DNA from: Streptomyces hainanensis
GTDB lineage: Bacteria; Actinomycetota; Actinomycetes; Streptomycetales; Streptomycetaceae
Direction: 5' to 3'
Assembly (NCBI RefSeq): GCF_004348415.1
Contig: NZ_SMKI01000007.1
Span: 1 to 38,787, forward strand
DNA length: 38,787 nucleotides
The number at the start of each line of letters is the position of its first letter. Within the stretch, counting starts at the first letter, position 1. Made by a program: the position numbers and the translations under genes. Shown here one piece after another: positions 1,222-38,787 of this stretch. The notes under the pieces are model-generated. The model saw only the letters and a list, made by a program, of their open reading frames with translations, searched no databases and was not told the origin of the DNA.

Positions 1222-2437
1222 TCTCCGCGCCTTCGCCACCGCCATCGAGGCCCGCACGCCCGCCCACCGGGACCGCGCCGTCGACGGGCTGCGGGCGCTG
1301 GCCCTGCTGTCGGTCCCGGCCGGGCACTGGCTGGTCGGCGGCTTCACCCTGAACGACGAGGGCGCCCTGCACAACGCCAGCCCGCTGGCAGCCCTCGGCG
1401 CGCTGGCCCCGGCCAGCTGGCTGTTCCAACTGCTCGGCATCTTCTTCCTGGTCGGCGGCTACTCCGCGGCGCACTCCCTGCGACGGGCCACGGAGCGGGG
1501 CACGAGCACCGGCACCTGGCTGCGCGGCCGGCTGGTGCGCCTCGGGCGTCCGGTGCTCGGCGTGACGGCCGTGTGGGCGGCGCTGTTGCCGCTGCTGTCC
1601 CTGGCCGGGGTGCCCGGCACCACCCTGCGAACGGCGTCCGTGCTGGTCGTGCAGCCGCTGTGGTTCGTCGGCGTCTACGCGGCGATCACCGCGCTCACCC
1701 CGTACGCGCTGCGTGCCGCGGAGCGGGCGGGGCTGTGGTCGGCGCTGCCGCCGCTGCAGTCGGTGGCCGTGGTGGACGCCCTGCGCTACGGGCCGTTCGC
1801 GGACGCGATGCCGTCCTGGCTGGCGCTGCTGAACCTGCTGCCCGGCTGGCTGTTCGGCTACCAGCTGGGCCTGGTGTGGGGCGTGGGACGGCTGTCCAGG
1901 CGGGCGGCCGCCCGCCTGCTGCTGGGCGGCGGCGTGGTGCTGTTCGCCGTGCTGCTCACCGTCTTCGGCTATCCGGCGTCCCTGGTCGGCGTTCCCGGCG
2001 AGGCCCGGACGAACTCCCACCCGCCCTCGCTGCTGGTGCTGGCGCTGGCCGCCGCGCAGTCGGGGGTGGCGGTGCTGGCCAGGGAGCGGCTGGCGGCGCT
2101 GCTGGCACGGCCCGCGCTGTGGGCGCCGGTGGTGGTGATCAACCTCGCCGCGATGACGATCCTGTGCTGGCACCAGAGCGCGATGCTGGCCGCCGCGATC
2201 CCGGCCGCCGCGCTGAACGGCGGCGCCGCGGTCGCCGGCCTGACGGCGGACCCGACCTCGCTCGGCTGGGTGGCGGCGCGGCTGGCGTGGCTGCCGCTCT
2301 TCGCGGTGCTGCTGGCCGGTATCGCCTCGGTGACCAGGTACTTCGAGCAGCCGTGGACGGGCGCCTCGACCGGCCGTCGGGTGCTGGCCGGGGCGCTGGC
2401 GGCGGGGTTCTCGCTGTACGCCCTCGCCGTGGTCTGA
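1205..2437 (+). CDS. Integral membrane acyltransferase (acyltransferase 3 family)
   Basis: A 410-residue polytopic protein with about ten hydrophobic segments. The N-terminal motif RDRAVDGLRALALLSV followed by GHW matches the start of acyltransferase-3 (OafA/NodX-like) proteins, in which a membrane-embedded Arg/His pair moves an acyl group from the cytoplasm to a glycan or lipid acceptor outside. A second His is in CWHQSAM, late in the protein. The ATG lies inside the end of the hydrolase gene in another frame, which indicates translational coupling. The acceptor cannot be read from the sequence. A strong hairpin terminator follows the stop codon. A second, only distantly similar, acyltransferase lies at 6279-7409 on the other strand. 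Confidence 0.8.
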   Translation: MPLPADLRAFATAIEARTPAHRDRAVDGLRALALLSVPAGHWLVGGFTLNDEGALHNASPLAALGALAPASWLFQLLGIFFLVGGYSAAHSLRRATERGTSTGTWLRGRLVRLGRPVLGVTAVWAALLPLLSLAGVPGTTLRTASVLVVQPLWFVGVYAAITALTPYALRAAERAGLWSALPPLQSVAVVDALRYGPFADAMPSWLALLNLLPGWLFGYQLGLVWGVGRLSRRAAARLLLGGGVVLFAVLLTVFGYPASLVGVPGEARTNSHPPSLLVLALAAAQSGVAVLARERLAALLARPALWAPVVVINLAAMTILCWHQSAMLAAAIPAAALNGGAAVAGLTADPTSLGWVAARLAWLPLFAVLLAGIASVTRYFEQPWTGASTGRRVLAGALAAGFSLYALAVV

Positions 2438-2471
2438 GTGCCGGCGTGCGTGCCGGCGTACGCGCCGGCTC

Positions 2472-2507
2472 GGGTGCCGCCCGTGGGACGACCCGCGGGC
2501 GGCACCC
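2472..2507. terminator. Bidirectional hairpin terminator between convergent genes
   Basis: The arms GGGTGCCGCCCG and CGGGCGGCACCC pair perfectly and continue inward through a T-G wobble and three G-C pairs to an ACGA loop, giving a 16-bp stem. It lies between the stop of the acyltransferase (2437) and the stop of the convergent acetyltransferase (2514). There is no T-tract, as is usual for Streptomyces hairpin terminators. Confidence 0.75.
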
Positions 2508-2513
2508 CGCCGC

Positions 2514-3743
2514 TCAGAAGCCGTGCGGCAGCCAGGGGGCCAGTGCCGAGCCGAACGCCGTCGTCGCCACCTCCAACGCCCCGGGCCGCAGCTCCCGCAC
2601 CAGCCCCGCCCCGGCCAACGCCGTCAACGTGGTGTCGCCCAGATACGACGCGCCCAGCGCCCGCACGTCCACCGCCAGGTCGGCCGGGTCGGTGGTCGGC
2701 TCGCACACCGCGCCCTTGGGGCCGCCGCTCAGCCGCCAACGGCCCCCGTTCCACGGGCAGAAGTCGTCCTCGACGGCCAGCACCACGTCCACCTCGGTCC
2801 GGTACGTCCTGGCGGCCAGCGCCGCGCCCACGTCGACCGGCCTGAGGTAGAGGCGGTCGGTGATCCGCGGGTCGCAGCGGCGGACGTCGGAGACGAGCCG
2901 CAGCAGCGGGTCGTCGACGGGCCGGTTCGAGAGCCGCACGGTGGACGTCAGGTCGACCTCGCCGAGGAAACGCAGCAGCGCGGCGTACGCGGCCGGCTCC
3001 GCCGCCTCCAGGTCGCGGACGACCACCGTGCCGTCCGGCACCGAGGCCTCCCAGCGCACCTTCAACGCGTACCGCGCGTACCCCACCAACTCCCCGTCCC
3101 GCTCGGCGAGGACGCAGCGCAGCTCGGACGCGCCGTCCCGGTCCTGTGGCGGGTCGAGCAGCGGCGCCTTCTCCCAGCCGGGTTGCCGCGCCAGCATGCC
3201 GGGGCGGTGCGGCACCAGGCGCGTGTAGAGCGCCTCGCACCGGTCCACTGCCTCGGCGGGCTCCACCACGAGGAAGGTGATGCCGTCCGCGGCGGCCGGC
3301 ACGGCGACCGTGACCCGGGAGGTGTCGATGGCCACCCGCATCATCCGGGTGGCCATGCCGTAGCCGAAGCGCCCGTAGATCGCCGGCTCCGAGGCGGTCA
3401 GCCCGGCCAGCGGCACGCCGGCGGCGCGGTAGTCGTCGAGCGCCGACCGCATCATCCGGCGCAGCAGCCCGCGCCGCCGGTGGGTGGCGGCCACGCTCAC
3501 CATCGTGATGCCGGACGTCGGCACCAGGGCGCCGCCCGGCACCGCCATCCGGAAGGAGAAGGCGCCGAAGGAACCGACGATCCGGTCACCGTCCCAGGCC
3601 GCGACCGACCGATCGATTTCGGTCAGTTCTCGCCATAGTGCGCGTTCCTCGGGAGCGTCGGGTACGCCGCCGAACGCCCATTCGAGGCCGCCGTACCAGG
3701 CGTCCCAGTCCCCGGCCTCAAGACCGCGCAGCTCAATCGTCAT
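2514..3743 (-). CDS. Eis-like GNAT N-acetyltransferase
   Basis: A 409-residue protein whose length and layout match the Eis family (N-terminal GNAT, second GNAT-like domain, SCP2-like C-terminal domain). The acetyl-CoA loop is VAATHRRRGLL (residues 84-94). The motif IYGRFGYG (122-129) contains Tyr123, equivalent to the general-acid Tyr of mycobacterial Eis. The protein ends in Phe409, matching the Eis feature in which the C-terminal Phe carboxylate acts as base. Eis enzymes acetylate aminoglycosides at several positions and other amines; the natural substrate here is unknown. The start is the ATG at 3743, with AGGGA nine bases upstream; a longer reading frame exists but its extra residues resemble no family member. 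It diverges from the SpoIIE phosphatase across 127 bases. Confidence 0.88.
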   Translation of the reverse strand: MTIELRGLEAGDWDAWYGGLEWAFGGVPDAPEERALWRELTEIDRSVAAWDGDRIVGSFGAFSFRMAVPGGALVPTSGITMVSVAATHRRRGLLRRMMRSALDDYRAAGVPLAGLTASEPAIYGRFGYGMATRMMRVAIDTSRVTVAVPAAADGITFLVVEPAEAVDRCEALYTRLVPHRPGMLARQPGWEKAPLLDPPQDRDGASELRCVLAERDGELVGYARYALKVRWEASVPDGTVVVRDLEAAEPAAYAALLRFLGEVDLTSTVRLSNRPVDDPLLRLVSDVRRCDPRITDRLYLRPVDVGAALAARTYRTEVDVVLAVEDDFCPWNGGRWRLSGGPKGAVCEPTTDPADLAVDVRALGASYLGDTTLTALAGAGLVRELRPGALEVATTAFGSALAPWLPHGF

Positions 3744-11876: not shown

Positions 11877-13172
11877 GTGGCACGCATCGGTGATGGCGGC
11901 GATCTGCTCAAGTGCTCGTTCTGCGGCAAGAGCCAGAAACAGGTGAAGAAGCTCATCGCGGGCCCGGGGGTCTACATCTGCGACGAGTGCATCGAGCTCT
12001 GCAACGAGATCATCGAGGAGGAGCTCGCCGAGTCCTCCGAGTCCGATCTCGGCGAGCTGCCGAAGCCGCGGGAGATCTTCGACTTCCTGGAGAGCTACGT
12101 GGTCGGCCAGGAGGACGCCAAGAAGGCGCTCTCGGTGGCCGTCTACAACCACTACAAGCGGGTGCGGGCCAGCGAGGCCGACGGCCAGTCGCGTGACGAG
12201 GCCATCGAGCTCTCCAAGTCCAACATCCTGCTGCTCGGCCCCAGCGGCTCGGGCAAGACCCTGCTCGCCCAGACGCTGGCCCGGATGCTCAACGTCCCCT
12301 TCGCCATCACCGATGCCACCGCGCTCACCGAGGCCGGCTATGTCGGTGAGGACGTGGAGAACATCCTGCTCAAGCTGATCCAGGCCGCGGACTACGACAT
12401 CAAGAAGGCCGAGCAGGGGATCATCTACATCGACGAGATCGACAAGGTCGCGCGGAAGAGCGAGAACCCGTCGATCACCAGGGACGTCTCCGGGGAGGGC
12501 GTCCAGCAGGCCCTGCTGAAGATCCTGGAGGGCACCACCGCCGCGGTGCCGCCGCAGGGCGGGCGGAAGCACCCGCACCAGGAGTTCCTGCAGATCGACA
12601 CGTCGAACGTCCTCTTCATCGTCGGTGGCGCCTTCGCCGGCCTCGACGAGATCGTGCGCGCCAGGTCGGGCGCCCGGGGCATCGGCTTCGGCGCCGACAT
12701 CCGCTCCAAGCGGGACCGCGGCTCGGCCGAGCTGCTGCGCGAGGCGCTCCCCGAGGACCTCGTCAAGTACGGCATGATCCCCGAGTTCATCGGCCGGCTG
12801 CCGGTGATCACCTCCGTGCAGAACCTGGACCGCGAGGCGCTGCTGCGGATCCTGGTCGAGCCGCGGAACGCCCTGGTCAAGCAGTACCAGCGGCTCTTCG
12901 AGATCGACGGCGTCGAGCTGGAGTTCACGCTGCCGGCGCTGGAGGCCATCGCCGACCAGGCGATCCTGCGCGGTACCGGCGCCCGGGCGCTGCGCGCGAT
13001 CATCGAGGAGGTGCTGATGTCGGTGATGTACGAGGTGCCGTCCCGGCCCGACGTCGGCCAGGTCGTGATCACCGAGGACGTGGTGCGGTCGAACGTCAAC
13101 CCGACCCTGGTCCCGCGTTCCCGGCTGGCCAAGCAGCGCGGCTCGGTGCCCCCGCACGAGAAGACGGCCTGA
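11877..13172 (+). CDS. clpX: ATP-dependent Clp protease ATP-binding subunit ClpX
   Basis: A 431-residue AAA+ unfoldase. The N-terminal zinc-binding domain has two Cys pairs (CSFCGK and CDECIELC, residues about 14-43). The AAA+ module has Walker A GPSGSGKT (about residue 121), Walker [10 protein letters not shown] (about 184) and an IGF-type loop, GIGFGAD, for docking to ClpP. The GTG at 11877 follows AAGGGGAAG. It recognises tagged or native substrates, unfolds them by ATP hydrolysis and feeds ClpP1P2. It lies 267 bases after clpP2 and is closed by a 19-bp hairpin. Confidence 0.98.
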
Positions 13173-28281: not shown

Positions 28282-30228
<1,947 letters not shown>

Positions 30229-30305
30229 ACCTGGGGGCTGCGGTTGGTGAGTGTGATGGACGTCACGCCGCTGGTTCAGCGGCGCATCTGCTGATCGGGT
30301 GACGG

Positions 30306-30332
30306 TGGCGCCCCGCCTCGTAGGGGGCGCCA
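30306..30332. terminator. Hairpin downstream of the radical SAM gene
   Basis: TGGCGCCCC and GGGGCGCCA form a perfect 9-bp stem around a 9-base loop, 77 bases after the stop codon at 30228. No T-tract follows. It may end the core transcript or mark the edge of the accessory island. Confidence 0.55.
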
Positions 30333-30428
30333 TCGCGGCGTGGGGGAGCGAGTCGGATCAGTGCTCCCCGCTGCGGAATGTGCTCGGGACGTTCTTTGGT
30401 GCCTGCTTCTTGGATCGCCGTGGCTTGC

Positions 30429-30721
30429 ACCTCGAACCCACCAGGGTTGATGACGGACCCGGCGCGCTGCGCGACCTGGTCGCCGAACTCCGCGGTTGCG
30501 AACCCACCAGGGTTGATGACGGACACGCCGACCCGCCGCCCGAACTGCGGCAGGCACCGATGTTGCGAACCCACCAGGGTTGATGACGGACCTGCTGCTC
30601 GCCGGGCTGCGCCAGCGCTACGCCGCGTTGCGAACCCACCAGGGTTGATGACGGACCTGATCGAGCGGCTGGCCCAGGACATCCTGAGCGGGTTGCGAAC
30701 CCACCAGGGTTGATGACGGAC
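30429..30721 (-). CRISPR. Five-repeat CRISPR array without cas genes in view
   Basis: Four identical 30-base repeats lie at 30495-30524, 30562-30591, 30627-30656 and 30692-30721. A fifth, at 30429-30458, matches in its last 26 bases only. Spacers are 36, 37, 35 and 35 bases (30459-30494, 30525-30561, 30592-30626, 30657-30691) and unrelated to one another. The repeat contains the dyad AACCC-ACCA-GGGTT. The degenerate unit is at the left end and is worn at what would be the 3' end of a minus-strand repeat, so the leader is probably on the right and transcription minus; that repeat would begin GTCC and end GCAAC. The 30-base form differs from the 28-29-base type I-E repeats common in Streptomyces. 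Subtype cannot be fixed without cas genes. Confidence 0.93.
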
Positions 30722-31057
30722 GCGAGGGTAAGGCCGCAGCTGAGGCCTACACCACCGCACCTGTTGGCGCGCGGATGTGCAGCGGTTCGGCGGTAGTGCA
30801 TCAGTGCAGGTCAAAGCGATGGGCGGATTGCTCCGCAGGTCTCTGTCTTGTCGCCTGCCAGGCTACGCGGGCCGATCCGCGATATGCCCTTCAGCTTCCC
30901 AGGGTTGGGCAGTTGAGTCTGCTGGCCCTGTCGCTTCGACCGCCCGTAACGGGATGACCAGCAGGTCCGTCCGGTTCCGCCTTTCGGGTAACGATCCGGT
31001 CTCGCCGTAGGCGTGTTGTCGTGATCACTGCCGATTTGTCGGCGTGAAGGTGCGTTG
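30722..31057. other. 336-bp non-coding region: candidate CRISPR leader and Rhs promoter
   Basis: No gene is seen. The first 36 or so bases after the last repeat look like a further spacer or coding fragment. At 30809-30814 the minus strand carries TTGACC, a -35-like box about 90 bases before the array, but no good -10 follows. The direct repeat AGTGCA-TC-AGTGCA lies at 30795-30808. The right end must hold the Rhs promoter; the palindrome GTGATCAC is at 31021-31028, and GAAGG (31046-31050) is the Rhs ribosome site. GC content is below that of the flanking genes. Confidence 0.4.
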
Positions 31058-34000
31058 ATGGTGCGACAGGGGTCTCGTGTAAATCTGAAGAGATCATGGA
31101 ATCTCTTGGTCGTCATGTCGACGATTCGTGGGGGGACCGTGCTTCGCGCGCGCTTTCTGGTGCTGTCCGCTGCCCTGTTGATGGCGGTTCTGACCGCTCT
31201 TGACCCGGGCACGGCCGCGGCGGCCAGCCGTTGGGTCGCCGCGTCGGAGGTCGCCGTCGAGGCCGGTGAGGCGCCGGGGCAGGAGTGGGGCTCGGCGGAT
31301 GGCCTGTCCCACGAGGCCGATGCCGCCGACACGACCGCCGAGGGGGACGGCAGCGGAGGTGAGCCGGGCGAGGCGCCGGGGCAACTGCCGCTCGACGAAG
31401 GTCAGTCCACGAGCGACGACCTGGGGGACACGGCCCCGCCGCTGGAGTCCGGTGACCCGGAGGTCATCGAGTCGCTGCCGCCGGCCGAACTCACCGGATT
31501 CGACGAGGAGACCAGCGTCGAGGTGCCGGAGGAGCGGACCGAGGACTCCCGCACGTTCCGCAACACGGACGGCACCTTCACCACCCGCTACTACAACGAG
31601 CCGGTCAACTACCCCGACCTGGACGGCGCCTGGCAGACGATCGACACCTCCCTCGTCCGCGCCGCCGGCGGTGAGTCGTGGGAGACGACAGCCACCGAAG
31701 CCGGCGTCAGCTTCGGCGCCATGGCCACGGACGACCCGTTGATGACGCTCCGTCTGGATGAGGAGTACGCCGTCGGCTACGCCTTGGCCGAGGCGAGCGC
31801 CGTCCCCGGCGAGGTCGAGGGGCCGCTCGTCACCTACCGCGACGTCCGGCCCTCCTCCGACATCGAGTTCCTCGGCGGCAACGCCGAGATCAAGGAAACG
31901 ATCGTCCTCCGCGACGCCGACGCCCCCACAGAGTGGCGGTTCCCGCTCCATCTCGACGGCCTCACCGCCACACTCGACGAGCACGGCGGGATCGCCTTCG
32001 CCGACGCCGAGGGCACCGTCCGTGCTCACATGCCGCCCGGCTGGATGGAGGACGCCGCCGTCGACGAGCGCTCCGGCGACGGCGCGATAACCGGCGGCGT
32101 CAGCTACGAACTGGCCACCGAGAACGGCCGCCAGGTGCTCGTCGTCACCCTGGACGAGGAGTGGCTGAGCGACCCCGAGCGGGTCTACCCAGTCCGCGTC
32201 GACCCGTCCGTGACCCGTGTCGAGGCCAGCTCCTCCACCTATGTGCAGCGTCCGTACAACATCAACTTCTCCACGGACACGATCCTGAAGGCCGGCACCC
32301 CCGACGGCGGCGACTCCGCCGCCACCTCGTTCCTCCGCTTCTCCGGCGTGCAGTCGTCGCTGCGCAACGCCTGGGTACTCGACGCGCGCCTCGCCCTCTA
32401 CAACTCCTGGTCGTACTCCTGCAACGCCCGTCCGGTCACCATCCACCCCATCACGCAGAACTGGTCGGCTTCCACCCTGGCCCAGTACCCAGGGCCGAAC
32501 GTCGGCGCCGCACTGGCCACCGACCGGTTCGCGCACGGCTGGCGGCCCGCCGGCACGACCAACTGGGCCTGCGCGCCGGCCTGGGAGAGCATCGCGCTCG
32601 GCTCCGCCGGTCGGCAGCTCGTGGATGACTGGACCCACGGCCGCAAGATCAACTACGGCCTGGCCATCCGCGCTTCGACGACCGACTCCTACGGGTGGAA
32701 GCAGTTCGGCTCCACCCGCTACCCCAACGGCGCGCCGAGCCTGGACGTCACGTGGACGCAGTACGGCGCCACCTACCGCCTCGGCCAGCTCACCCAGCCG
32801 GTGACGGCCGTGGGCGAGGGCGTGCAGCGCGTCACCGTCACCAACCAGGGGCAGGAGACCTGGCCCGCCGGCGGCCGGTTCAAGCTGCGCTACAACCTCT
32901 ACGACGCCAACGGCAACGAGCTCACCGACTCCTCGCTGCGCCGCTACACCGAGATGCCACGAGCCGTCGCGCCCGGTGAGAGCGTCACGCTCGACGCCCG
33001 GATCGCGCCGCTGACCCCCGGCACGTACACCGTCGACTGGACGATGACGGACTACGGCGTCACCCGTTTCACGAGCCAGGGCATCCCCGGCGCCCGGGTC
33101 CGGCTGGCGGCCGTCAACATCCCGCCCGAGCTGACCGGCGCCGCTCCCGGCAGTGGCGCGGTCGTCGACACCCTCACCCCGACCCTCTGGGCCGAGGGCA
33201 CCGACCGCGACCACTACCCCAACGCCCGCCTCCAGTACTCCTTCGAGGTCTGCGAGGTCGACGGCGAGAACACCCGCAAGAACTGCCGCACCGGCAGCCG
33301 CAGCGTCAACCAGCAGTGGGCCGTCCCCAGCGGCTGGCTCTCCTGGGACAAGACCTACGCCTGGTACGCCTACACCTACGACGGGCAGGCCACCTCGCTG
33401 CGTCCCAACCCGTCGCTGTTCTCCACGCGGGTGCCGCAGCCTGCCGTCACCGGTCACCTCGGCGGTTCCGACGGCCGCGACTTCAACCCGGTCAGCGGCA
33501 ACTTCGCCGCAGCCGCGACCGACGCCGCCGTCTCCACCATCGGCCCGCCGCTGGCCGTCACCCGCACCTACAACTCCCTCGACCCCCGCGCCGACCTTGC
33601 CTTCGGCCCCGGCTGGACCACGCGTTGGGACATGCGGGCCTCCGTCGAAGCCGACGGCAACGTGGTGGTCACCCTGGCCGAGGGCAACCGTGTCCGCTTC
33701 GGCCGTAACGCGAATGGCAGCTACACGGGCCCGTCCGGCGGCAGCCTCACCCTCACCACCGCGACGGGCGGCGGCTGGGTGCTGCGCGACGCGACCGGCG
33801 CCACCCACACCTTCAACGCCGCAGGCCAGCTCACCAAGGTCGCCGACACCGCCGGCCGCGAGCAGCGCCTCACCCACACGTCCGGCCGCCTGGCGACCGC
33901 CACCGACGCGCTCTCCGGCCGCACCCTGACCTTCACCTGGCGGGATGACCGGGTGGAGACCGTCACCACCAACGCCGTGGCCCCCGGCGAGGCGGGCCTG

Positions 34001-37000
34001 ACCTGGCGCTACGGCTACACAAGCGGCCGGCTCACCAGTGTCTGCCCGCCCGGCACGACGGAGGAGTGCACTCGCTACAGCTACGAGGACGGCTCGCTCT
34101 ACCGCAGCGCCGTCCTGGACGCAGGCCCCGTCTCCTACTGGCGGCTTGACGAGGCGGAGGGCGCCACCGCCGCCAGCTCAGCCCCCTCCCGCACCGGCTT
34201 CAACGACGCCGAGTACCTCAACACCTCGGGCGGCGCCCCCGGCGCGCTGGCCGGCACCAGCGACACCGCCGCCTCGTTCGACGGCACCGACACCGTCGTC
34301 CGCCTCCCGCACGACACCCTGCGCACCACCACCTTCCTCTCCATCGAACTGTGGTTCCGCACCACAGGTCCCGGCGTGCTGGTCGGCTTCCAGAGCCAAC
34401 GCCTCGAGGACGGCCAACCCGAGTCCTGGACCCCGCCGCTGACCGTCGACGCCAACGGCAAGCTCTCCGGCTACCTGTTCACCGGCGACCGCGGCAACAT
34501 CACCCCGATCAAGAGCTCCGCCACGGTCACCGACGGCGCCTGGCACCACGCCGTCCTCACCGCCGAGGGCACCACCCAGACCCTCTACCTCGACGGCCGC
34601 GCCGTCGGTACCCTCAACGGCACCATCGACCACCTCGACATGGCCTACACCTACCTCGGCGCCGGCTACTCCTCCTCCGGCTTCGACGGCATCGCCGGCG
34701 GCGTCCGCCGCCTCAACGGCCAACTCGACGAGGTCGCCGTCTACCACCGCGCCCTGGACGCCGCCACCGTCGCCGAACACCACGCCCTGCGGCAGCCGGC
34801 GGCCCGCCTCACCGAGGCCACCCTCCCCTCCGGCCGCACACACGCCACCAACACCTACGACGACGCCACCGGACGCATCACCGAACACACCGACGCCGAC
34901 GGCGGCACCTGGCAGCTCTCGCAGCCGTCGTTCACCAACGGATCGAGCACCTACGCCGACACCGTCCGCTCCGGCGACCCCACCGGCTACTGGCGCCTCA
35001 CCGAACGCTCGGGCGCTGCCGCCGCCAGCGCGATCGGCGACGAGACCAACGGCGCCTACCTCGATGGCGTACGTCCCGGTGGGCCAGGACCCTTCGCCGA
35101 CGGCGACACCACCGCCCCCTACTTCACCGGACAGTCCGACAGCGCCGTCGAGGTCCCCACCGACGCGTGGGGCGACACCGCCGCCCAGACCGTCGAACTC
35201 TGGTTCCGCACCACCGAATCCGGCGTCCTGGTGTCCATGCAGAACCAGCCCCTCGGCACCACCCCCACCAGCTGGTGGCCCATGCTCCTGGTCGACCAGG
35301 ACGGCTATCTGCGCGGCCGTCTCCGTTACCCGGGCGACGCCACCACGCTGCGCTCACGGGCGCGCGTCGACGACGGCGAGTGGCACCACGTCGCCCTCAC
35401 CGGCACACAAGAGGCGCAGATTCTCTTTCTCGATGGCGATCGCCAAGCGGACAACAGACAGGGCACCAATACAGGACGGTTGCCGTACACCTTCATCGGC
35501 GGTGGATACTCCTCGCCGAGCTGGGACGGGCAGTCAGACGGGTACCGCAACTTCTCCGGCCAGATCGCCGAGGTCGCCTTCTACGACACGTTGTGGATCA
35601 CCCACGTCACCGACAGCGGCATCGGCTGGTCCAACCACGGTGACAGCAGGATCAGCACGGCCACCGCTCTGGTGTCCGGCACCGGCGATGACTACCGCGC
35701 TGCCGTGATGGGCGACGGAGCCGCTGCCTACTGGCAGTTCAACGAGAACGGTAGCGCCACCGCGTACGACGAGGGCGGACGCCATCACGCCACGCTGGAA
35801 GGCACGCTCTACCGCAGCCAGCTCGGCCTCTTCGGCGTCGGCGACGGCAGATCCATTTACGGCACGACCAACGGAGCGGTCCGGATGCCGGGCGATGTCC
35901 TTGCCGGTACCACTGACATCTCCGCCGAGATGTGGTTCAGCACGACCTCGACAAAAGGTGTGCTGATGGCCTTCCAGGACGCCCCGTTGGGCAGCACCCC
36001 CGCGCACTGGCAACCAGTACTGCTGATCGACGGTGACGGCCGCCTGCGCGGACAGTGGTGGATACCCGATGCCGGTGGTCCTTCCCCCATCACCTCCCCC
36101 ACGCCCGTGAACGACGGGGAGTGGCACCACGTCGTCCTCTCCGGATCCGGGAACACCCAGACCCTCTACCTGGACGGCGTGGCGATCGGCACCAAGACCG
36201 GCGCCTTCGCGGACACCAGCCGGCCGTACGCCTACCTCGGCGGCGGATACAGCAGCAGCCAGTGGATGGGGCAACCGGCAGGCACCTACAACCTGTTCGG
36301 TTACCTGGACGAGGTCGCGCTCTACCGGCAGGCCCTGACGGCCGACGACGTCGCCGCCCACTACACCGCCCGCGTGGAGCGCGCCAGTTCGGCGCTCGGC
36401 GCCACCGTCACCGTGACCAACCCACTCGGCGACACCACCGACGCGACCTACGACGCGCTCCGCGGCTACCGCGTCACCTCCGTCACCGACGCCGAGGACG
36501 GCACCACCACCTACGCCTACGACACCGGCGGCTTCCTGCACACCGTCACCAACCCCAACGGCGACGCCACCATCACCGGGCACGACGAGCGCGGCAACAC
36601 CGTCTCGACCACCACCTGCCGTGGCCCGCGGGACTGCCAGACGTCGTACGCCGACCACTACCTCAACGCGAACAACCCGCTGGACCCGCGCAACGACAAG
36701 CCCACCGCCACCGCCGACGCCCGCTCGACCGGACCGGCCGACGCCACCTACCGCACCACCACCAGCTACACCACCCTCGGCCTGCCGGAGACGACCCGCC
36801 TCCCCGACGGCCGCACCACCCGCCGCACCTACACCACCGGCACCGAACCGGCGGTCGGCGGCGGCACCACCCCGCCGGGTCTGCTGGCCACCGACGTCCA
36901 ACCCGATGGCGCCACCACCCGGTACGCCTACTTCGCCAGCGGTGACGTCGCCCGCACCACCCAACCCTCGGGCCTGGCCCTGGAGTACACCTACGACGGC

Positions 37001-38787
37001 CTCGGCCGCCGGCTGACCGAGACCGAGATCTCGGACGCCCAACCCGACGGCGTCACCACGACGTTCGTCCACGACGCGCTCTCCCGTGTCACCTCGGAGA
37101 CCGGCGCCACCACCGAGAACGCCGTCACCGGCGAGGACCACACGGCCCAGGTGACGCGCGCCTACGACCCGGACGGCAACATCCTCACCGAGACGATCGC
37201 CGACCTGGGCGGCGACGACCCGGACCGCACCACCCAACAGCGGTACAACGAACACGGCCGCGTCGACCGCGTCATCGACCCCGAGAACGGCACCACCTAC
37301 TACGTCTACGACGACCTCGGCCGGCTCGCCCAGGAGACCGACCCCGCCGGCACGGTGCTGCGCCACACCTACACCCCGCGTGGCCAGCACGCCACCACCG
37401 TCCTCCAGGACTGGACCGGCGACCCGTCCGGTGAGGTCCGTGACCTCACGCTCGTCTCCAACGCCTACGACCCGGCCGGTCGCCTCGCCACCACCACCGA
37501 CGCCATGGGCGCCGTCACCGCCTACCGCTACTTCGGCGACGGCCTGACCGCCACCGTCACCGCCCAGGACGTCTCCGGCACCCGCGACATCGTCCTGGAG
37601 GACAACACCTACAACCGCGCCGGCCACCTCGTCCGGCAGGCCACCGGCAACCGCACCGTCGTGACCGAGCACGAAGTCGACGTCACCGGACGCGTCACCA
37701 CCACCGTCCTCGACCCGGACGACCTGAACCGGCGCACCGTCACCACCTACGACGACGCCGACCGCCCGCTGGAGGTCCGCCAACTAGGCTCCTCCGACGC
37801 CGACTTCCTCACCACCAGCTACACCTACGACCCGGTCGGCAACCCGCTCACCCAGACCGTCGCGGACGCCGACGAGCAGAGCACCACCCACCAGACCTTC
37901 GACCAGCGCGGCCTCGTCACCTCCAGCACCACTCCGCGCGGCCACACGACCGATTACGCCTACGACGCGCTCGGCCGCCCCATCGGGCAGACCGCTCCCG
38001 AGGTGGACGGCACCCGGCCCGAAACCCGTACCGGCTACAACGCGTTCGGCGACGCCACCGAGCAGCGCGACGCGCTCGGCGCGATCACCCGCATGGCCTA
38101 CGACCGACTCGGCCAGCCGACCACCGTCACCAGCCCCGAGTACACGCCTCTCGGCGGCCAGCCCATCACCGCCACCGCCGAGACCGTCTACGACACGCTC
38201 GGCCGCACCGTCGCCACCACCGACGCCCTCGGTCGCACCACGCGTTACGCCTACGACCAGCTCGGCAACCTCATCACCCGCACCGACCCGGATCCGGGCA
38301 CCGAGGCCACCGCCGCGTCCCGTTTCCTGCTCGACCCACCGGACGTGGAACTCGCCGACACCCCAGGCTCCGGCAGCGAGACCCACTACACCCACACGCC
38401 CACCGGCCTGCCCCTGTCCACCACCGACCCGACCGGCGCCCGCACCGAGGCCACCTACGACCCGCTGGGCCGCCAACTCACCGCCACCGTCGTCGAACGC
38501 CACCCCACCACGGCGAACCTGACCTCGACCTACACCTGGGACGACGCGGGCAACCAGACCGAATCCGTCACAGCGGAGGGCATCGTCGCCCGGGCGCGCT
38601 ACAACGCGGCCGGCGAACCGACCGGCGTCTTCCAGAGCGGCCACTGGACCACCATCGATCGGGACGCCTTCGGCCGCGAGACCCGCACCACCACCCCCGC
38701 CGGCTACCGCACCGACCTCACCCTCAACCACCTCGGCCAGGTCGTCCGCACCGACGAGTACGGCAGAGGCGACACCGTGCTGCGCAC
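31058..38787 (+). CDS. Giant secreted Rhs/YD-repeat protein, 5' part (runs off the window)
   Basis: At least 2,576 residues with no stop before the window end. The ATG at 31058 has GAAGG seven bases upstream; 31061, 31115 and 31139 are other in-frame starts. Residues 28-54 are a Sec signal (FLVLSAALLMAVLTAL, then AAAAS). A Glu/Asp/Gly-rich linker follows. A region resembling DNRLRE modules covers about 377-565 (YPVRVDPSVTRVEASSSTYV). DGRDFNPVSGNF (about 803) opens the Rhs shell, followed by three LamG-like domains (about 1018-1245, 1298-1510, 1546-1770) and YD repeats such as TYTYDPVGNPLTQT to the end. Family members form a hollow shell and often carry a C-terminal toxin released by self-cleavage; that part is not in view. 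No PAAR or VgrG-type domain is present. Confidence 0.9.
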   Translation, partial: MVRQGSRVNLKRSWNLLVVMSTIRGGTVLRARFLVLSAALLMAVLTALDPGTAAAASRWVAASEVAVEAGEAPGQEWGSADGLSHEADAADTTAEGDGSGGEPGEAPGQLPLDEGQSTSDDLGDTAPPLESGDPEVIESLPPAELTGFDEETSVEVPEERTEDSRTFRNTDGTFTTRYYNEPVNYPDLDGAWQTIDTSLVRAAGGESWETTATEAGVSFGAMATDDPLMTLRLDEEYAVGYALAEASAVPGEVEGPLVTYRDVRPSSDIEFLGGNAEIKETIVLRDADAPTEWRFPLHLDGLTATLDEHGGIAFADAEGTVRAHMPPGWMEDAAVDERSGDGAITGGVSYELATENGRQVLVVTLDEEWLSDPERVYPVRVDPSVTRVEASSSTYVQRPYNINFSTDTILKAGTPDGGDSAATSFLRFSGVQSSLRNAWVLDARLALYNSWSYSCNARPVTIHPITQNWSASTLAQYPGPNVGAALATDRFAHGWRPAGTTNWACAPAWESIALGSAGRQLVDDWTHGRKINYGLAIRASTTDSYGWKQFGSTRYPNGAPSLDVTWTQYGATYRLGQLTQPVTAVGEGVQRVTVTNQGQETWPAGGRFKLRYNLYDANGNELTDSSLRRYTEMPRAVAPGESVTLDARIAPLTPGTYTVDWTMTDYGVTRFTSQGIPGARVRLAAVNIPPELTGAAPGSGAVVDTLTPTLWAEGTDRDHYPNARLQYSFEVCEVDGENTRKNCRTGSRSVNQQWAVPSGWLSWDKTYAWYAYTYDGQATSLRPNPSLFSTRVPQPAVTGHLGGSDGRDFNPVSGNFAAAATDAAVSTIGPPLAVTRTYNSLDPRADLAFGPGWTTRWDMRASVEADGNVVVTLAEGNRVRFGRNANGSYTGPSGGSLTLTTATGGGWVLRDATGATHTFNAAGQLTKVADTAGREQRLTHTSGRLATATDALSGRTLTFTWRDDRVETVTTNAVAPGEAGLTWRYGYTSGRLTSVCPPGTTEECTRYSYEDGSLYRSAVLDAGPVSYWRLDEAEGATAASSAPSRTGFNDAEYLNTSGGAPGALAGTSDTAASFDGTDTVVRLPHDTLRTTTFLSIELWFRTTGPGVLVGFQSQRLEDGQPESWTPPLTVDANGKLSGYLFTGDRGNITPIKSSATVTDGAWHHAVLTAEGTTQTLYLDGRAVGTLNGTIDHLDMAYTYLGAGYSSSGFDGIAGGVRRLNGQLDEVAVYHRALDAATVAEHHALRQPAARLTEATLPSGRTHATNTYDDATGRITEHTDADGGTWQLSQPSFTNGSSTYADTVRSGDPTGYWRLTERSGAAAASAIGDETNGAYLDGVRPGGPGPFADGDTTAPYFTGQSDSAVEVPTDAWGDTAAQTVELWFRTTESGVLVSMQNQPLGTTPTSWWPMLLVDQDGYLRGRLRYPGDATTLRSRARVDDGEWHHVALTGTQEAQILFLDGDRQADNRQGTNTGRLPYTFIGGGYSSPSWDGQSDGYRNFSGQIAEVAFYDTLWITHVTDSGIGWSNHGDSRISTATALVSGTGDDYRAAVMGDGAAAYWQFNENGSATAYDEGGRHHATLEGTLYRSQLGLFGVGDGRSIYGTTNGAVRMPGDVLAGTTDISAEMWFSTTSTKGVLMAFQDAPLGSTPAHWQPVLLIDGDGRLRGQWWIPDAGGPSPITSPTPVNDGEWHHVVLSGSGNTQTLYLDGVAIGTKTGAFADTSRPYAYLGGGYSSSQWMGQPAGTYNLFGYLDEVALYRQALTADDVAAHYTARVERASSALGATVTVTNPLGDTTDATYDALRGYRVTSVTDAEDGTTTYAYDTGGFLHTVTNPNGDATITGHDERGNTVSTTTCRGPRDCQTSYADHYLNANNPLDPRNDKPTATADARSTGPADATYRTTTSYTTLGLPETTRLPDGRTTRRTYTTGTEPAVGGGTTPPGLLATDVQPDGATTRYAYFASGDVARTTQPSGLALEYTYDGLGRRLTETEISDAQPDGVTTTFVHDALSRVTSETGATTENAVTGEDHTAQVTRAYDPDGNILTETIADLGGDDPDRTTQQRYNEHGRVDRVIDPENGTTYYVYDDLGRLAQETDPAGTVLRHTYTPRGQHATTVLQDWTGDPSGEVRDLTLVSNAYDPAGRLATTTDAMGAVTAYRYFGDGLTATVTAQDVSGTRDIVLEDNTYNRAGHLVRQATGNRTVVTEHEVDVTGRVTTTVLDPDDLNRRTVTTYDDADRPLEVRQLGSSDADFLTTSYTYDPVGNPLTQTVADADEQSTTHQTFDQRGLVTSSTTPRGHTTDYAYDALGRPIGQTAPEVDGTRPETRTGYNAFGDATEQRDALGAITRMAYDRLGQPTTVTSPEYTPLGGQPITATAETVYDTLGRTVATTDALGRTTRYAYDQLGNLITRTDPDPGTEATAASRFLLDPPDVELADTPGSGSETHYTHTPTGLPLSTTDPTGARTEATYDPLGRQLTATVVERHPTTANLTSTYTWDDAGNQTESVTAEGIVARARYNAAGEPTGVFQSGHWTTIDRDAFGRETRTTTPAGYRTDLTLNHLGQVVRTDEYGRGDTVLR
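34111..36365 (+). repeat. Three tandem LamG-type units inside the Rhs protein
   Basis: Units begin near 34111, 34951 and 35695, each with a residue pattern SYWRLDE, GYWRLTE or AYWQFNE. Each has the LamG core IELWFRT/VELWFRT/AEMWFST, DGAWHH/DGEWHH, LYLDG and a closing DEVA-Y. The second unit is irregular: LYLDG is replaced by LFLDG, and it ends in FYDTLWITHVTDSG instead of the AA-HY/EHH ending of the other two. LamG folds bind carbohydrates or proteins. Confidence 0.8.

Follow-up and report, generated by a model that had tools for sequence, protein, structure and literature searches.

The short array of 30-base repeats in the window is, in our judgment, very probably a small CRISPR array, secondary to the main arrays of a type I-B system. 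The window (the whole stretch of DNA analysed, 38,787 bases) is one entire contig, C777, out of the 951 that make up the 7,991,366-base assembly, and the array, hereafter W, is not an orphan at the level of the genome: a second contig, C111, carries four related arrays together with a full type I-B cas locus. An earlier note on the window had taken W for an orphan-looking array in the core chromosome. The genome contradicts the first point, and the second overlooks that W follows directly on a conserved gene whose end is a reported attB of serine integrases; an RHS-type gene lies on the other side of W. W is new as a member only; what makes it interesting is that it sits where gene-restoring integrase elements enter. 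This landing site for mobile DNA is probably the route by which W arrived.

The array and the type I-B system on a second contig

The earlier note read the layout of W accurately, as four perfect repeats and a worn one with spacers of 35 to 37 bases (Table 1). Near-identical direct repeats alternate with unique spacers of even length, and a conserved leader stands at one end with the worn repeat at the other. Among all 30-mers of the window the W repeat alone occurs at least three times, so it is not a product of chance, and Tandem Repeats Finder recovers the array with a period of 65–67. The proposed stem AACCC/GGGTT does form in folds of single-repeat RNA, for both strands. Also as described, the 38.8 kb contain no cas gene that the eight Cas proteins of C111 could detect by tblastn (E 0.01), and a Cas1 search of the genome gave no match on C777. 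Because the window is the whole of that contig, this absence is an effect of the contig edge and not a property of the genome.

Table 1. Features at the array W locus of contig C777 (window coordinates)
Feature	Position	Strand	Remark
Radical SAM gene, TIGR03960 family, intact	28282–30228	+	attB of phiJoe-type integrases falls at its 3' end
Putative serine-integrase crossover dinucleotide	30136–30137		phiJoe attP centre, placed by eye
Terminal ~30 codons, probably element-supplied	30138–30228	+	copies at C111:2112, 40188 and 52573
Flank between gene and array	30229–30428		also at C111 A1 and A3; 12-bp inverted repeat 30303–30335
Worn terminal (trailer-end) repeat	30429–30458	-	4 mismatches, confined to first four bases
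Spacer 1	30459–30494	-	36 bases
Repeat	30495–30524	-	exact
Spacer 2	30525–30561	-	37 bases
Repeat	30562–30591	-	exact
Spacer 3	30592–30626	-	35 bases
Repeat	30627–30656	-	exact
Spacer 4	30657–30691	-	35 bases
Leader-proximal repeat	30692–30721	-	exact
Leader common to all five arrays	30722–30820	-	right boundary approximate; from pairwise scores
RHS-repeat/laminin-G protein gene	31055–38785	+	cut by the contig end; probably carried by the same island

The genome-wide search for repeat and cas genes that the earlier note had advised returns arrays on C777 and C111, and cas1, cas6 and effector genes on C111. A 26-base core of the repeat, allowing up to three mismatches, has 52 matches in the genome, five on C777 and 47 on C111. 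All 52 fall inside arrays, so that a 30-base unit dispersed singly through the genome, the finding named in advance as fatal to the array, is nowhere seen, and a dispersed repeat was rejected as a candidate. A laxer scan of C111 delimits four arrays: A1 (2408–3570), A2 (12529–13024), A3 (40471–41506) and A4 (50012–50641). Together with W these hold 57 repeats and 52 spacers, four of the spacers in W and 7–17 in each of the others. The W repeat matches those at the C111 cas locus with the main exception of the loop, and the main repeat variants differ in the loop only, which reads ACCA in W, ACCT in A2 and A3, and TCCG in A1 and A4. That the four repeats of W share a loop variant of their own points to spacer acquisition after the arrays had separated.

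Each of the five arrays has a leader of roughly 100 bp at its right end; the ten pairwise scores range from 18 to 45, whereas 300 random pairs from C111 never exceed 7.5. The W leader differs from the other four in its first base and in one base of the GGTAAAG motif. The position of the leader at the right end implies that W is read on the minus strand and that the worn repeat marks the trailer end, which is where such a repeat is expected.

Between A3 and A4, cas6-cas8b-cas7-cas5-cas3-cas4-cas1-cas2 run uninterrupted on the plus strand, a gene set of type I-B composition (Cas3, Cas8b, Cas7, Cas5, Cas6, Cas4, Cas1 and Cas2). PADLOC and NCBIfam profiles identify Cas6b, Cas7 (Cst2/DevR), Cas5, Cas3, Cas4, Cas1b and Cas2, and the C111 Cas3 carries the motifs we looked for, which we take to be those of the HD and helicase domains. 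The Cas8 protein has no PADLOC or NCBIfam match at E 1e-5 and no Pfam match at E 1. At a looser limit all six Cas8 homologues match PADLOC Cas8b, the C111 protein itself at E 1e-5 and the best at about 1e-12; the PADLOC profiles thus suggest, weakly for this protein, that it is Cas8b-like. An AlphaFold model (six sequences; mean pLDDT 72, pTM 0.59) matched nothing in the PDB with Foldseek at E 0.001, and sequence searches of solved structures returned nothing meaningful.

The integration site at the radical SAM gene end

The gene that precedes W scores 705 bits against NCBIfam TIGR03960, for which the cut-off is 462, and the worn repeat begins 200 bp past its stop codon. Passages of the published description of phiJoe place the attB of phiJoe and SCO2603-type integrases generally 74 bp from the end of the SCO2606-like gene, a B12-binding radical SAM gene whose site is used by mobile elements of varied content (PMC5311408). 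When the annotated phiJoe attP, as its reverse complement TGCCCCCAGATGGACAC, is set against the window TGCCCGCAGATGAACAC, the central dinucleotide falls, by eye, on 30136–30137.

The end of this gene, with its flank, is repeated at C111:2112 (92%) and C111:40188 (84%), leading into A1 and A3, where the recurrence spans gene tail, flank and array trailer from the crossover rightwards. A tail-only copy, R, lies at C111:52573 and is 82% identical. In the four tail copies similarity starts at 30131–30135, within a few bases of the crossover: to the right of CCCGCAG, pairs of copies are identical at 71–86 of 90 bases, to the left at 9–13 of 40, the exception being A1 against R (19 of 40). All four share an ending, LLPLQVV...GAD (SGAD), that is absent from each of 32 relatives, which were not selected for an integrase. 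These 32 also lack an integrase or cas match in the DNA beyond the gene (roughly 1.5 kb for most of them, 0.4 kb in one); one of them, G003, is also among the 29 integrase genomes considered below, its integrase lying further away. On C111 a recombinase (50909–52525) is 64% identical to the phiJoe integrase over 524 residues, and the gap between copy R and the predicted first codon of this recombinase is 47 bp, beside the cas locus. C111 holds a related serine integrase next to an att half-site, the half-sites being present on the unjoined C777 and C111.

In three relatives whose downstream DNA was read, the radical SAM gene has, by eye, a TIGR03936-like gene within a few kb after it. The TIGR03936 gene of the present genome is on a third contig, C333, where a different gene precedes it and the tail has no copy nearby, so this region has been rearranged or broken up. 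The right end of the window cuts an RHS-type gene with laminin-G domains. The left end of C111 begins with the end of a nuclease toxin lacking its beginning (Endonuclea_NS_2), followed by two SUKH-family genes (L021:2–787, 815–1393 and 1416–1964); a further RHS-type gene on C111, with a NucA/NucB nuclease end, occupies L021:4293–8771 on the minus strand. The incomplete RHS-type gene and the toxin end fit an adjacency of the two contigs, which is no proof of it.

Other genomes of the genus show how such elements treat the gene that they enter. A survey of 392 genomes at a threshold of 1e-120 found the integrase in 46, the present genome included, and the best 30 of these 46 loci, one our own and 29 from others, were examined. 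In 27 of these best 30 loci a radical SAM tail frame (attR) lies no more than about 125 bp from where the integrase begins. The radical SAM gene has a complete tail of its own in all 29 other genomes, and the attR tail, readable in 26, differs from the gene tail in every one. Seven genomes (G030, G097, G104, G119, G133, G152 and G265) have an identical gene tail, and the five readable attR tails among them all differ from each other. Across the loci of the 29 Streptomyces-group genomes (L101 and L175–L231), elements appear to bring their own radical SAM 3' end. The simplest reading is that the tail travels with the element and would thus restore the gene. None of the 26 integrase-gene intervals contained on one contig (of 29) holds a CRISPR-like array or these cas genes, three of the intervals having been trimmed inside the end genes and the detector being positive on the window and C111 arrays; CRISPR cargo is thus unusual here. 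In a search for the flank-array unit at this gene, 37 of the 392 genomes matched, the 36 besides our own within the gene tail only; the negatives of this search are weak, since just two candidates were scored in each genome and our own A3 copy escaped it. A second genome with the arrangement of W was not found in the flank-array, repeat-family or integrase-element surveys.

From these comparisons we infer that W came as cargo of a phiJoe-type integrase element. It would have arrived as the left end of the integrated element, which would also have given the radical SAM gene its substitute last ~30 codons, and repeated integration or duplication would then have produced the three units of tail, flank and array. 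A bolder proposal, which we put forward tentatively, is that the CRISPR-Cas system multiplies its arrays by means of a gene-restoring element. A substitute tail with an array attached would come in whenever such an element integrates at the radical SAM attB, so that arrays would pile up at one harmless site, all of them served by a single cas locus. The reverse history, with W native to the site, the window the original attB and the C111 units copies left by elements that took up the neighbouring array, deserves a hearing, doubtful as we find it. The window gene is intact across the crossover and its tail runs straight into the array, while the left arms of A1 and A3 are unrelated, as they would be for displaced right halves. 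Yet the search of the other 391 genomes (two candidates scored in each) found no flank-array unit at the gene, the 36 matches among them stop within the gene tail, and the gene keeps a tail of its own in all 29 integrase genomes, unlike the attR tail in the 26 where both can be read.

Function, spacers and competing readings

Judged from sequence, W is a real and probably working satellite array of the type I-B system, and most likely it serves standard type I-B immunity by drawing on the Cas6, Cascade and Cas3 of C111. W would be transcribed on the minus strand from its leader, the C111 Cas6 would cut its repeats, and the resulting crRNAs would direct the Cascade and Cas3 common to all the arrays to invading DNA. 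The earlier note had allowed that a distant cas locus might serve W in trans, for which the C111 locus is now a candidate, and had argued from the conserved repeats against long decay, as the four exact copies bear out; W as a relic is not favoured.

Against plasmids, at E up to 1, the whole array drew 60 records, the best among the matches listed at E 0.002, and against phages 66, the best of those listed at E 0.02, with no listed match spanning much of the query in either case. Searched singly against phages, spacer 1 returned 99 records, the best listed covering 31 of 36 bases at E 0.003 in Microbacterium phages, and spacer 2 returned two, at E 0.1; spacers 3 and 4 were covered within the whole-array query. 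Seeds of 20 bases from spacers 1 to 4 matched 2, 1, 1 and 0 stretches of viral contigs, none of which extends well (27/36, 25/36, 24/37 and 28/35). A convincing protospacer for the four W spacers was found in none of the plasmid, phage and viral-contig searches. The A3 array had no match among phages, and A1 had one (two records): its spacer at L021:3438–3474 is 88.9% identical, over 36 of 37 bases at E 0.008, to an HTH gene in Gordonia phage Finkle, a possible but unproven protospacer.

This lack of convincing targets is one of the points that speak for W as a stranded silent copy, duplicated along with its att-site flank and neither gaining spacers nor giving rise to useful crRNA; its small complement of spacers beside the 7–17 of the other arrays is a second, and the few changes in its leader a third. 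Even so, the four repeats of W are identical to one another in a loop variant of their own and the leader is mostly intact, and we regard the silent copy as unlikely. Service by a different CRISPR system of the same genome is very improbable. Two further arrays exist (G000:C299:117–397 and G000:C82:146–432), on contigs with cas1 matches, and their repeats are presumably type I-E-like. These repeats are different in kind from that of W, whereas those of C111 match it except for the loop. A type I-E relic was rejected on the same difference in repeats. That W is not CRISPR at all, merely an ordinary tandem or dispersed repeat, is scarcely credible: its 25.2 bits against Rfam CRISPR-DR12 fall short of the gathering score of 37, but its even-length spacers share no sequence, and it has a leader, membership of a set of five arrays, and linkage of that set to cas genes.

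With W taken, then, as a secondary array of the type I-B system, it shows that a contig edge alone can make an array look like an "orphan", and it is a case of CRISPR arrays tied, nearly to the base, to the point where a characterised integrase family crosses over. The element reading, if true, suggests how secondary arrays spread and duplicate, and it may be tested in a culturable genus.

Repeat family and comparison with known systems

Within three mismatches the W repeat occurs in two of 150 genomes of the genus, our own included, and a Cas8 search at 1e-10 matched 12 of 392 genomes, four of which (again counting our own) reach at least 61% identity. In the other three of these four the radical SAM gene lies on another contig or, in the single case of a shared contig, at a distance of 4.2 Mb, and the search for a tail copy came up empty in them. 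A pattern for the repeat family picked out 17 stretches in 13 named genomes, all Streptomyces or Wenjunlia, six of the stretches with a single match only. Related cas genes accompany the repeat in 11 of the 17 stretches fetched, two of these 11 at 27–45% identity, and this tie to cas genes in other genomes marks the system as of an established kind. The earlier view of the repeat therefore survives in part: it is unlike the I-E-like repeats of its own genome, but with a family of this extent it is not atypical. In one relative (G120:C141:350920–380688; L078 and L079) cas4-cas1-cas2 is inverted relative to cas6-cas3, and the type I-B cas genes come, by eye, after apparent type I-E cas genes.

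Among the closest known systems are the Streptomyces type I-B systems with this repeat family, for example those of S. lushanensis, S. zagrosensis and S. beigongshangae; they have the repeat family and related Cas proteins, Cas1 for instance being 83–86% identical in these three. The Streptomyces type I-B stretches differ from the present case in their surroundings, as none of the 17 for which DNA was fetched contains a radical SAM gene or a phiJoe-type integrase. The phiJoe/SCO2603-type elements, conversely, share the attachment gene end and the crossover seen here, and a word search in the text of their description found no mention of CRISPR, unlike the case of C777 and C111 (PMC5311408, in the portions consulted). 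Among the matches listed in a title and abstract search, no open-access PMC paper concerned CRISPR arrays at a radical SAM att site. For the sharing of one cas locus among arrays there is a parallel in Leptospira interrogans, where, in the portions of the study consulted, a single subtype I-B system has several arrays, as here, served by one Cas6 (PMC9372919). The Leptospira arrays lie between two cas operons, whereas here one array stands on another contig, at an integration site.
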